Source: Telopea speciosissima
Taxonomy: Eukaryota > Streptophyta > Magnoliopsida > Proteales > Proteaceae
Direction of reading: 5' to 3'
Assembly (NCBI RefSeq): GCF_018873765.1
Contig: NC_057922.1
Span: 11,855,563-11,919,562, forward strand
Length of the DNA stretch: 64,000 bases
The translations under genes and the position numbers were made by a program. Positions 1,990 through 21,984 of this stretch are shown here, one piece after another. The notes under the pieces were generated by a model, which did no database searches, was not told where the DNA came from, and was given only the letters and a program-made list of their open reading frames with translations. Within the stretch, counting starts at the first letter, position 1. Each line of letters opens with the position of its first letter.

Positions 1990-3540
1990 TTCTTTTTTTT
2001 TTTTTTGGTAGAACACCCTTACCTATTTACAATTCATAATGGGGGTTTTCATATGCCCTAATTAGTATTCATGTGTCGTGGGAAATCCTGTCCTTTCTTT
2101 TTAAGGTTAATCTTCATGAAAGATACATGGTGATAGTAAGTTGTCACCTTCCTATGTGGTATAGATAAAACCCTCTTGGATACAATACGAAATATCATAA
2201 TAAATCAATATTTTTTAATATCCAAAATATCTCTTATTGTACGGAGATACGAACCAAAAGGCAGAGCAATCATGACGTAAAGCTTGATGTAATCTCTTCT
2301 TCTTTTTTTTTTAATAAAAGAAACTTGATGTAACCAACCGTGATAGACATAGAAATACAAAGTTAAGTAAAAAGATAAAAGATTGCTACAGTACCTTTGC
2401 ACAGATTCTTTTATATCCTCCTCATAAACAATGAGATCTACACTGACATTTCCCTTTCCAATTCTAACCATGTGGGCCTCATATGGATGATACCATTTTC
2501 CAACTCTTCATTCGTTGTACTATGCAGATTCCTTCTTAAAAAATCATCATTAATTAAAAATAGGGCAAGAGATTGTTGTCCTTATGGGAAATCCTCTCCC
2601 TAATTAAAAACAAGGCAAGAGATTGTTGTCTTGTCGTGTGACCTACATTAGTGCGGGAGCCAATGGAAGCGTGCACAAAGGCATCGATATGGAGGAGATT
2701 TTTTGTTAAGAGAGGGGGGGTGATAGTTTTGTGCACTCTTTTGTCTGGGCGTAGAATCCACGCGACCAAACAACGTCCTTCTTCCCTTACAGATAAGAGA
2801 GATTTCACTATGTCACTATTGAATGGAAACCGTGGAGATAGAATAACGGGTAAGAGTTGTTGCAATAGTTTTTTATTTTATTTTTTTACTTTCCTATCCT
2901 AACCAAAGTAATAAACATCATAAAAAACAAATTTTTCTTTTTTTATTTCATATATTTTTAAATTTTTTTTCATTTAGTTTGAATTTTTTTTTTAATCCAT
3001 TTCTATCAAAACAAATACAACCTAATTGTACAAGTGAATAGAAAACATCACACAAGAAGGTAAAGCAGATCCAGGGACGCCGGACACCTGGAAAAGTCCA
3101 GCATCAAGAAGTTTCATCAGTTCATAAGGAAGTCAGAGCAAACATATCATAGTACCCTGTTGGCCTTCTTCCCATGTTGTTTGATAAGGCACGTCCACTA
3201 TCGACATATAGGACAATCAATCCATAAGGGTATTTTGGTTATTTGCAAATTTATTATGACCTGCTAACCGCCTAACATCATCATTTAACATGTACAAAAT
3301 GAGTATTCCGTCAGTCTCAGGGTCTACAAGTAAGGTTTTAAAAAGAAAATGGTGTACAAGTTATTGGGACAAACCTCACGAGATGTACAAACACTTTACC
3401 TTTTTTAGAATTAGCCAATAAAAATCTTCTTTTGAGGTTCAATCACCTTGTCGGATCTATAACTTTAAAATTAGGCAAGAGAACGCTAACTGGTCATGTA
3501 GCCTTTGCACCAAAAATCTTATTTTGAGGTTCGACAACGT
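1990..3540. other. Intergenic AT-rich spacer
   Basis: I see no gene. Within it, 2554-2640 has a short direct repeat (GGCAAGAGATTGTTGTC twice). The stretch 3421-3545 has two copies of an approximately 40-bp unit around CTTTTGAGGTTC and GGATCTATA about 90 bp apart. These look like transposon footprints. Confidence 0.4.
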
Positions 3541-17789: not shown

Positions 17790-19962
17790 AGTTTCATGGA
17801 ATGGGAGAATTGTTTTGGGGTTCTTAATAGAAGTGCCCAATGTTATTTTTGTTCAGTAGGAGAGTTCTTTCTGTGTTTTTGTTGTGGTTTTATGTGAATA
17901 TTGGGGACTTAAAAGTAGTACTTCATAGTATGTGATATTCAGTATGAACCTCAGAGAGAGAATATTTGCAGAGATAAAGTCAATATTTCTATTGTAATTT
18001 TCCTCGTGTATTCATTCATTTGTTGCTGAAAAAGCAACGATACCCATCAAGTATGAACTTTAGGAGAGAGAGAGAGACAGAGAGACTAATGATACGGCCC
18101 CCTCAATGGCTTAGCAGTGAACACAGCACATGTGCATGGTAAGACAACAAGCTTATCGGAGTCACCATGCCTTCAATGCTCCCAAGCTGAACAGGTGAAG
18201 GTGATCTCCAATAGTGAAATTGCTGCAACTGTTAGCAAAAAGGAGGGTCAAACCTGAGTTGGTTAAGGGATTTATATAAAACTGAATGGAGATCATATCA
18301 TTTAAGGGCTCAATCCTTGTTTTACCTGATTTATTAATCTAGTATTTAATCAGTTGTAATTGACATACAAAACAAGCATGGAACTGTCCTGTTCAATGTG
18401 GCATTGAACAAATCCTGCTAAAGGTCTTTGAACTGAGACAATTCCAGATTAACCAACCCTACAGTGCAAGTCACAATTCTTTGGGAGTACACACAATGGA
18501 TAATGTAATCAGTTCGGAGAGATTAATGTTAGATGTTCATCCTTCGGTTACTTGACAACCAATTTTCACAACATCCCAACTGAAACAAGGATTTGGGCAC
18601 ACATATCCAAAGGTGTATTCCCTTTCTTCTGGTGTTGGCTTAGCCGTTCTTATCTCTTAACTTTTCTTCTGTAGTAATCTATTAAGTTTTTCCACACCAT
18701 CCAACTTCAACAGTATTGTGTGAAAGGGTATGTTAATTGGGTTAGCTCATACACTGGCCATCAAACTCTCAAGAGTCTCAAAAGTATTAGGTTTTGCTTC
18801 CCCAGGCCGTAACCTAGGTTTCTGGTAAACAGTAGGTAGGGAAACTCCAAAAGCTTGATAGAAGAACATATAATGCCCAGATCTAATTTCCATTCTTGGA
18901 AAAGGTAAATAGAGAAATAAAAACAGTACATGATTGGGGCCTCAAGTTTAAAAGATCCCACTAGAAGGAAACAAAGAAAAAAGGGCAAAAAAGGAAAAAA
19001 ACAGGGACTTGCTCTGCGTTTTGAGAAGAAATCCAAATGCTCTTAACGTAACATACATAACGCTAGCAAATGGCAAAACAGATCCATAGCATGAGACAAA
19101 CAACGGCTTCATTTCAGTATGAGACACCGAGAGAAAGGAGTCTTTGTAGAGTGCTCAACTGAGATTCTCAGAGGTGAGACCTGTATCTGGGTTCTTAGCC
19201 CAGATACAGAGAACCCACGACGTTAGAGAGAGAGAGAGAGAGAGAGAGAGAACTTACAACTATCGAGCTAAACCCAGTGGAAGACGCTCTCCTTGACGCC
19301 TGAAACCAACCCAGGGAGATGATGCTTTCTTCGAACCTGAAACTAGTTGGAGATCTGTCAATTATATCGGAATCGGCCGGGACCAAAATAAATGGTTTGG
19401 GTCCAAGTTTTCCAACACCCACGATCAAGATAGAATCTATTCAACCACTTTTTTGGGAGATATCAGATTAGAATTATTAAATCATGCCGTTAAAAATTAA
19501 GTACATGTACTATGAGATACAATGTAATTATACTATATACTAACATGTATATAATATATCTACATATGGAGACATCCTAATACAATATGGTGTATTGGAT
19601 CCAAAATAAGGAAAATCTTCACGCCATTATTGGTTCTTGTTGTAAGGAGGAAAGTTGTACAACCTATTGAAGAACAGTGGTATGACAACTAACTGGGAAG
19701 GGACGCTCAAAGGAGAAAGAATAAGAAGAACGTCAAACTGATTTTGCAGGAGACTGTGATACACATTAGCAGTGATCTGAAATTTGGGTTTCTTATATCT
19801 CTTTCTTTCTTGCAAGTTGAATGTCTGCCCATGCAATACATTAGCGGTGAATTGTGACATGAGTGTTAAAAATTACCTAAATTAGGGTTTGATAGAAATC
19901 ATAATCTTCTATTAATGTTGTAAGTATGTTTTCCTACACTGTATCTCTCACTCTTTTGTTAA
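17790..19962. other. Spacer with GA microsatellite
   Basis: No gene is supported. A (GA)n run occupies 19225-19251. Minus-strand open frames at 18761-19036 and 19195-19428 have no recognisable content; the second is partly translated microsatellite. Confidence 0.4.
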
Positions 19963-20325
19963 TAAAGTAAAGGGAAAATATAGCTGAAATTTACCATATT
20001 TTGACAAAAAGGCACAGACTACTCTTATTTTATGAAGATATATGAACTTAGTCCACTCCGTTAGGTTTTTAAGATTAAGTTGCTGTTAGTTTGATCATAA
20101 TAGTCAAATTAATCTTCGAAAGAATAAATGTACCATAATACCCCTTAACGGTAAAACCACCGCTGGGCTGAAGGAAGAAGACGCTCGAACGCTGGCTGTC
20201 GGAGTTCAACGAGGGCTTTCACGGTGCTTTCTGGTTCGGAATCAGTGACCCTGGCACAAGACACTGGAATCTCACCTCAAGCCATCGAAGAAGAAAAGGG
20301 ATTGGTGATCCAGAAGCTGATTGCA

Positions 20326-20560
20326 TTGATAATGAGATCCCTACAACCTTCAACTTCAGATTTGCCATCAAGAAGCAATTTTCCAACCTAGCAAGGCGAT
20401 TGAAGCTCTTATCGCCGTGTTCGAAGAGCTCAGGGACAGCAAAGACCCCATCCCTGAGGACGCTCTGTGTCCCCTCACATCTTTGAAGGATGCCCTGCAA
20501 TCAACTGAGGAGCTCCTCAGATTGGGTATTCAAGGGAGCAAATTCTCTATTAACTTCCCA
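20326..20560 (+). pseudogene. Captured U-box (PUB) N-terminal domain fragment
   Basis: Reads FRFAIKKQFSNLARRLKLL in one frame. After a one-base frameshift near 20412 it continues FEELRDSKDPIPEDALC, SLKDALQSTEELLRLG and QGSK. This is the helical N-terminal domain found before the U-box in plant PUB-ARM ubiquitin ligases. No U-box or ARM repeats follow. The frameshift shows it is not a working copy. It lies wholly inside the 19972-21648 element. Confidence 0.8.
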
Positions 20561-20749
20561 TCATTTTTGTTCTTTTTTTTCTTTCCCTCCTTCTGTTTGC
20601 CTTTACGGAGGATGCTTGTCTGGTGGAGGAGAGTCGTCAATCGCCGCTAGTGCTGGTGGTTGTGTCAGTGGTGGCGGATGTGGCAATAGGGGTCCATGTA
20701 GGTAATTGAGCTTGAAGAGAAGAGGGGTTTTTCTGGGTGTCCGAGAAGA

Positions 20750-21400
20750 TGAGCCGATTTAGATCAGAGGGAGGGGATGAAGAGAGGTTGAGTCGACTCG
20801 AACAGGATAGGAAGGGATCACCACCCGAGAACTCGGAGTTGCAAGAAATTCAAGGAAAGCTTAGCGGATGCACCTTGAGAAAGAGAAGACTGAAGAGCTC
20901 TTGAAGGTCAGAGAGGAGATGTTGAAGCAGAAAGAGGAAGAACTTGAAAACGGTGGAAGAGAGCAGGAGAAGCTGCAGTTGGAGTGGAAGAAGATGCAGA
21001 AATGGAAGGAGTTCAAATCCCCCGTGGTATGTCCTGTTTATTCCCATTTTTATTTTTTTGGGGTTTATTTCCACTTGAGCTTGATGTCTGATTTGATCTT
21101 TACTCCTCTCTCTGTTTACCTTTCCCCTGGTTCAATCTCTAAGAGAAAAGGAGCAAGAAAAGAACGTTAAGAGAAAGTAAAAGGCGGGTCCACTGTGGTG
21201 CAAAGACCAATGGAACGAGGTCAACAGGGGGAAGAAATAGCTTCACATATTTAGCAATTTCTTGCTTGATTTCTCCAGAAATTGTTCTTCAAGGATGTCG
21301 ATACAGGTAAAGAAAGAGAACCCACAGTCGGAATTCAAAGAAATCTCAAACATATTGGGATCGAAATGGAAGAACCTCAACCCTTGGAGTTGCTGCGCCA
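20750..21400 (+). pseudogene. Captured 3xHMG-box protein fragment
   Basis: A coiled-coil part reads EKTEELLKVREEMLKQKEEE and EQEKLQLEWKKMQKWKEFK (20868-21020). HMG-box pieces LWCKDQWNEV (about 21190-21225) and KKENPQSEFKEISNILGSKW (about 21310-21370) follow. The order and wording match plant 3xHMG-box chromosomal proteins (a coiled stretch, then HMG boxes). The piece at 21025-21140 looks like a retained intron (GTATGT...AG), so the capture was from genomic DNA rather than cDNA. Frames change between blocks; it is not intact. It sits inside the same element as the PUB fragment. Confidence 0.8.
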
Positions 21401-21862
21401 TGTTTCGCAGCCGGATGGAAGCTCTGAGCTTTTCGTCAACTCTCCAGAGCAGGTGATGGTCGCCGGAACCGGAGCAGGTGATGATGAAATGACAATTTTT
21501 TTATTTAAATAATTTGGGGGTTAAAATGGACATTTCAACTTTAGGTGCTAACTGTGCTTAACGTTAGGGGTGTCTGTGCCTTTTTGTCAAAATATGGTAA
21601 GTTTCAGCTATATTGGATAGTTTTAGGGGGTGTCCGTGAAATTTTTCCTAAAGTAAATATATTTTCCTATTCTCTCTATATTTGTTGTAGAGGTCTAGAA
21701 TTTGTTTTATGTTTTTTTATAATAATTGTAAAATTATAATTATTTGTATATTTTAATTCAAATATATGTAAACTTAACATTGAATTGAATTAATTACTAT
21801 TATATGTTTTTTTATAATAGTTGTAAGGTTCTAATTGTTTATATGTTTTAGATTTGGTTAAA

Positions 21863-21984
21863 TGTTTTCTGTGCAGCAGTGCAAGCTGCGCCCAGACACG
21901 AGGGTGAAAAAAATGACCACCCTACCCCCCTGAATGGGCAGCCCATGTGTCTGGGTGTAGCCTGCACTGCTGCATAGAAAACTT
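21863..21984. repeat. MITE of the TTTTCTGTG-CAGCAGTGCA family
   Basis: Inverted ends GTTTTCTGTGCAGCAGTGCA and TGCACTGCTGCATAGAAAAC with a GACCACCCTACCCCC centre. Relatives at 29320-29445, 37086-37230 and 46153-46284 share the ends and the CCCATGTGYCTRGG motif. Confidence 0.75.

Follow-up and report, generated by a model that had tools for sequence, protein, structure and literature searches.

A Pack-MULE of Telopea speciosissima with fragments of three host genes, very probably gained in successive steps

The window analyzed here is a 64,000-nucleotide stretch of the genome of Telopea speciosissima (C7:11855563-11919562 in an 823-Mb genome whose chromosome-like contigs C1-C11 measure 57-88 Mb apiece). 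It contains an element of 1,677 bp (19972-21648; Table 1) that is flanked by perfect copies of a 9-bp duplication (TSD; TAAAGTAAA), as an earlier note on this DNA had claimed. The inverted arms described in that note were also found, matching at 42 of 43 positions (19977-20019 and 21572-21614); a second inverted-repeat comparison gave 88% over 56 nt. The distances of the arms from the element ends are unequal (the left starts at nt 6, the right at nt 35), as some 30 bp that the related copies C3, C4, and C5p retain are missing from the left arm.

Two of the gene fragments carried by the element, from a PUB gene and a 3xHMG-box gene, had been recognized earlier as lying in the same orientation. 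Both are indeed on the forward strand, and they match genes encoding PUB10_N (PF25368, E 3.7e-11) and HMG_box (PF00505, E 2.3e-19, for a peptide with exons joined by hand) domains. The earlier count of "two unrelated genes" must be raised to three, a GRAS fragment having been overlooked that is present in antisense as pieces of 75, 245, and 64 bp. Its closest gene (L041; C5:8668500-8673500, at C5:8.67 Mb) has an intact 639-aa open reading frame (PF03514, E 1.7e-109). The GRAS fragment is the frame of the cargo, with the PUB and HMG fragments set inside it on the opposite strand, and a plain reading of the window copy undercounts its sources.

Table 1. Features of the element (window positions) and cargo of the copies in its lineage (GRAS positions are those of the closest gene, L041)
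Feature	Position	Strand	Remarks
Left TSD, TAAAGTAAA	19963-19971		Contiguous at a related element-free place
Left TIR and subterminal region	19972-20161	+	~30 bp missing near tip
Subterminal remnant	20163-20190	+	Common to C6, C8, C1; 96% to L040 1307-1334, 93-97% to L046/L047
GRAS piece 1	20185-20259	-	Antisense; L041 2108-2182
PUB fragment	20260-20598	+	Inserted in GRAS
GRAS piece 2	20598-20842	-	Antisense; L041 2264-2513
CTCGGAGTTGC	20832-20842		GRAS-derived; last 8 bp (GGAGTTGC) are microhomology with HMG donor
3xHMG-box fragment	20835-21383	+	Inserted in GRAS; two intron-like parts; closest gene in L044
CTTGGAGTTGC	21383-21393		Repeat of GRAS target bases CTCGGAGTTGC: 8 bp exact, 10/11 alike
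GRAS piece 3	21383-21446	-	Antisense; L041 2503-2566
Right subterminal region and TIR	21447-21648	+	
Right TSD, TAAAGTAAA	21649-21657		Directly adjoins element end
Copies C8, C1	GRAS 1873-1974, ~555 bp Y, GRAS 2428-2565/2566		No PUB, no HMG
Copy C6	GRAS 1873-2264, PUB, GRAS 2264-2566		No HMG
Copies C7, C3, C4	GRAS 2108-2182 (C4 to 2180), PUB, GRAS 2264-2513 (C4 from 2272), HMG, GRAS 2503-2565/2566		
Copy C5p	GRAS 2108-2182, PUB start, then 962 bp		962 bp with pieces of other repeats

With TIRs of MULE type, a 9-bp TSD, host gene fragments, and no transposase of its own, the element is a Pack-MULE, as had been claimed. Scanning 10 of its 35 listed stop-to-stop open reading frames (the longest listed being 104 aa) revealed no transposase, and the sole domain match was to PUB10_N, below its cut-off. 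TIR relatives, on which the earlier reading depended, are abundant: a genome search for the outermost 24 bp of its TIR, allowing two mismatches, gave 563 + 566 occurrences, and 0 for a reversed control, so the tip is not a chance sequence. Aligned arms measure 60-83 nt in the copies C3, C4, C5p, C6, and C8. MULE domain matches were found in the genome at all 150 places scored, out of 827 candidates.

Two places were found with the flanks joined into one query: C1005:6859-7094 (78%), which aligns through the TSD point without a gap, and C8:21883161-21883399 (72%), where the alignment has small gaps near that point. These are paralogous element-free places, not the orthologous site, and they fit insertion by transposition. 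The flanks (19770-19962 and 21658-21900) are themselves repeated, and matches to the left one include three places at C4:61.37-61.40 Mb. The same arrangement of PUB and HMG at a nonmobile locus, proposed earlier as a contrary outcome, was not seen in searches of the T. speciosissima genome.

A search of the same genome for the parental PUB and 3xHMG-box genes had been proposed in the earlier note. A likely donor is still present for both the GRAS and the HMG fragments, and the HMG piece forms one alignment with the genomic DNA of its closest gene (549 bp against 590 bp, four gap openings) that runs through the intron-like parts. This upholds the earlier claim of capture at the DNA level. The closest extant PUB gene is a poorer match, being 10-13% different. 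Capture of spliced RNA was considered since GRAS piece 1 abuts PUB exactly, as against 97 bp between them in C6; it was ruled out because the 97 bp consist of GRAS sequence and filler, with no intron. The fusion is broken, as reported before: frames are disrupted in the window copy, a frameshift in PUB is common to C7, C3, and C4, and the HMG piece still holds intron-like parts. No intact protein was found among the 10 of 35 reading frames scanned or on aligning PUB and HMG to their closest genes. The likeliest present role of the element, judged from its sequence, is that of passenger DNA, putatively transcribed or feeding small RNAs. The earlier interpretation thus stands as to Pack-MULE identity, DNA-level capture, and a broken fusion, and fails as to the number of genes.

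The lineage was read in seven copies: C7 (the window copy), C3, C4, C5p (C5:22.31 Mb), C6, C8, and C1. Six of the seven have their own perfect 9-bp TSD, the ends of C1 being damaged. The six TSD strings differ, those of C3 and C4 being AT-rich reverse complements of each other. Identity of these two insertion sites was considered on that account and rejected, as the flanks have just one 78% repeat in common, at unequal distances. C7, C3, and C4 diverge from one another by 3-7% over GRAS, PUB, and HMG.

We conclude that this nonautonomous Mutator-like element very probably gained host DNA in successive steps, moving between them. An ancestor would first have gained a 694-bp stretch of the GRAS gene in antisense, into which the PUB fragment would then have been set. 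In one branch, the element would then have lost two internal stretches and changed its outer arms; the 3xHMG-box fragment, with its introns, would next have been set into GRAS at a second point, and the resulting three-gene element would have transposed to give C7, C3, and C4. Each uptake may have come from templated DNA repair, by gap repair or a switch of template, of a break in the resident element, and the copies would have spread by cut-and-paste using the transposase of another element. Among the places listed for the TIR tip and for MULE domains, an unsystematic comparison brought out no transposase source bearing the element's TIR, which counts against this history.

The outer boundaries of GRAS are identical among copies, at 1873 in C6, C8, and C1 and at 2565 or 2566 in these three and in C7, C3, and C4, indicating a single GRAS uptake. 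In six copies, GRAS differs from its closest gene by 5.9-8.0% of ungapped positions; in C5p, the figure is 9.3% (7/75). The stretch Y that takes the place of mid-GRAS in C8 and C1 (558 and 553 bp; L046 and L047) has 27 matches genome-wide, itself included. By eye, it resembles a receptor-kinase exon-intron-exon; neither of two peptides picked by hand matched Pfam, and we class it simply as a repeated piece. The 962-bp stretch of C5p (L039 1389-2350) is a mosaic of repeat families, with direct and inverted repeats of 35-60 bp and 605 bp that recur at 86-92% in ten other places.

PUB was taken up before HMG, as C6 holds GRAS and PUB without HMG, which is confined to C7, C3, and C4. PUB and HMG were accordingly not brought together in one event, and a single capture of two genes is contradicted by the GRAS scaffold and the intermediate copies. 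In C6, PUB interrupts GRAS with no loss of GRAS bases: with PUB set aside, 1873-2264 and 2264-2566 align gap-free (392 and 303 columns), and the sides rejoin with an overlap of 0-1 bp. C6, C7, C3, and C4 have the right PUB-GRAS junction in common, a few bases of it differing in C4. At the left PUB junction, C6 has approximately 14 unmatched nt, for which the GRAS, PUB, and HMG loci compared gave no match of at least 9 nt; C7, C3, C4, and C5p share a different left junction and a deletion adjoining the left subterminal region. One secondary change must be assumed here, and this counts against the stepwise model. So does the divergence of PUB from its closest extant gene, which exceeds that of the older GRAS scaffold and would misfit the order of uptake if that gene were the donor; we therefore take the true donor to be lost, missed, or fast-evolving. 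The PUB of C6 also contains a 6,118-bp insert (L040 1968-8085), apparently flanked by GCTCT, in which BLAST found no terminal direct repeats.

The left HMG junction lies at 8 bp (GGAGTTGC) common to the element and the HMG gene; among 200,000 random junctions, at least 8 bp were common at a frequency of 2.25e-4. All six copies that cover the site have an A within GGAGTTGC where the GRAS gene has a G, with which the common run would be 5 bp. By lengthening the microhomology, this element-common base gives the strongest indication that HMG uptake probably took place within an element that already differed from the GRAS gene, although the GRAS donor may instead have carried the A as an old allele. 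Capture would most likely have been by template-switch repair, with the microhomology as guide. At ungapped positions, HMG differs from its closest gene by 4.4-5.7% in C7, C3, and C4, and in each of them it is less diverged than GRAS (6.2-7.7%). In C7 alone the two values are nearly equal, at 5.7% and 6.2% with gaps left out, and this counts against the model.

The characters fit one tree, arranged by hand without a tree program, in which (C8, C1) are followed by C6, then C5p, then C3 and (C4, C7); a 30-bp loss in HMG is common to C7 and C4 and is not found in C3. Arms and cargo differ in their relationships. In the left outer 90 nt, the identity of C7, C3, C4, and C5p is 72-83% with C6 and C8 and 90-99% with L007 and L008, which are TIR-family members outside the lineage (L005 and L006 were not part of this alignment); that of C6 with L007 and L008 is 78-79%. 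C3 and C6 show 91-93% identity in their GRAS and PUB cargo. Since the arms of the C7 group have diverged from C6 and C8 more than the cargo has, either the cargo came to lie between other arms or conversion altered the arms, and the need for this added step counts against stepwise growth.

One mechanistic extension is conceivable but rather unlikely: that a staggered cut by MULE transposase inside a resident Pack-MULE starts capture, the 8-11-bp repeat being the filled-in overhang, and that drift of the cargo creates the microhomologies that choose the next donor. If this were so, the cargo would seed further growth of itself.

Among the alternatives to stepwise gain, a single uptake of all three fragments, with later deletion of HMG (and PUB) from C6, C8, and C1, is improbable. 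The 8-11-bp repeats that flank HMG are indeed present, and recombination between them could have removed the fragment; if precise, such a deletion would mimic the uninserted state. Such a loss, with exact restoration of GRAS, is however required at least twice (in C6 and in C8/C1); HMG is also the least diverged fragment in each of C7, C3, and C4, and the PUB region of GRAS in C8 and C1 has been replaced and is unreadable.

The neighboring-insertion model (Catoni et al. 2019), in which elements lying side by side are mobilized as one unit together with the intervening DNA, is very improbable here. In PMC8903248, where the model is described, it serves to explain stepwise Pack-PIF additions and fused Pack-Mariner elements, and C5p does contain pieces of other repeat families. 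Against it, both PUB and HMG lie within one GRAS fragment whose sides rejoin with an overlap of 0-1 bp (PUB) or an 8-11-bp repeat (HMG), and the one inverted pair found besides the arms, of 18 nt, is within HMG, not at its ends. A reading just as doubtful takes the HMG piece for a small mobile unit in its own right, with the 8-11-bp repeat as its TSD. The TSDs of MULEs are 8-9 bp long, and the length of the repeat falls in this range; however, no inverted ends were found on the HMG piece, the HMG gene itself has 8 bp of the repeat right at the boundary, and L044 and L045, the two loci compared, are alike past both ends of the fragment, as in paralogous genes. An assembly artefact or chance joining has a negligible probability: one assembly was examined, but the junctions are common to three copies on three chromosomes that are 3-7% apart and have different TSDs.

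Earlier work has already described Pack-MULEs, multigene Pack-MULEs, and, for other Pack-TYPE elements, stepwise additions; the lineage described here is a well-resolved new case. MULE-derived genes and gene capture are treated in PMC4858842, PMC13317346, and PMC2836002. Like the Pack-MULEs of rice and other plants, our copies are TIR-bounded and nonautonomous, with a 9-bp TSD, intron-bearing gene fragments, several copies, and chimeric cargo; here the order of uptake can be read from intermediates, and the rice surveys may hold equal series. The titles and abstract openings of the literature searched describe no ordered nested series in a Pack-MULE, and we do not claim that none exists. In the section of PMC8903248 on maize Zm-Pack-PIF cluster #18, 163 bp from one gene are present in group B and 58 bp more from another in four elements, and fusion of neighboring insertions is favored for such stepwise addition. 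The T. speciosissima lineage shares the stepwise addition but belongs to another superfamily and has larger pieces from three genes, two of them nested in the first, and no TIRs were found at its inner junctions. For animal Pack-TIRs, PMC8277862 reports 190 cases (67.6%) in which at least one breakpoint has microhomology (1-36 bp, median 2), along with short new insertions, and gives gap filling or FoSTeST as the mechanism. Captured DNA in a resident TIR element, microhomology, and short new insertions are common to both systems; ours differs in being a plant MULE, in repeated uptake, and in a microhomology that includes an element-common base absent from the gene.

Opinion in the literature covered here is divided on the way in which MULEs acquire host DNA, and a lineage with intermediates and junctions lets the models be tested. 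The nested, TIR-free junctions and the element-specific microhomology favor repair templating over fusion of neighboring elements. A chimera of unrelated domains can, on the stepwise reading, be built gradually.

Other pieces of the GRAS gene are scattered through the genome. Five other copies (L061-L065, on C20, C9, C3 twice, and C2) hold a different stretch, L041 2533-2856, and in L062, the one of these that was read, the right subterminal region resembles that of the window element's family. Either the GRAS gene was captured more than once or one longer capture was split. At C3:31814850-31815320 (L069), a GRAS piece ends at approximately L041 2106, next to sequence unlike the TIR family. 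This piece (C3:31814967) was considered as one lost from the C7 lineage and rejected, as its GRAS match, by eye, runs past the left boundary of the lineage; we read it, likewise by eye, as a separate GRAS capture. Another GRAS piece, of approximately 99 bp, lies at C8:5062974-5063072.
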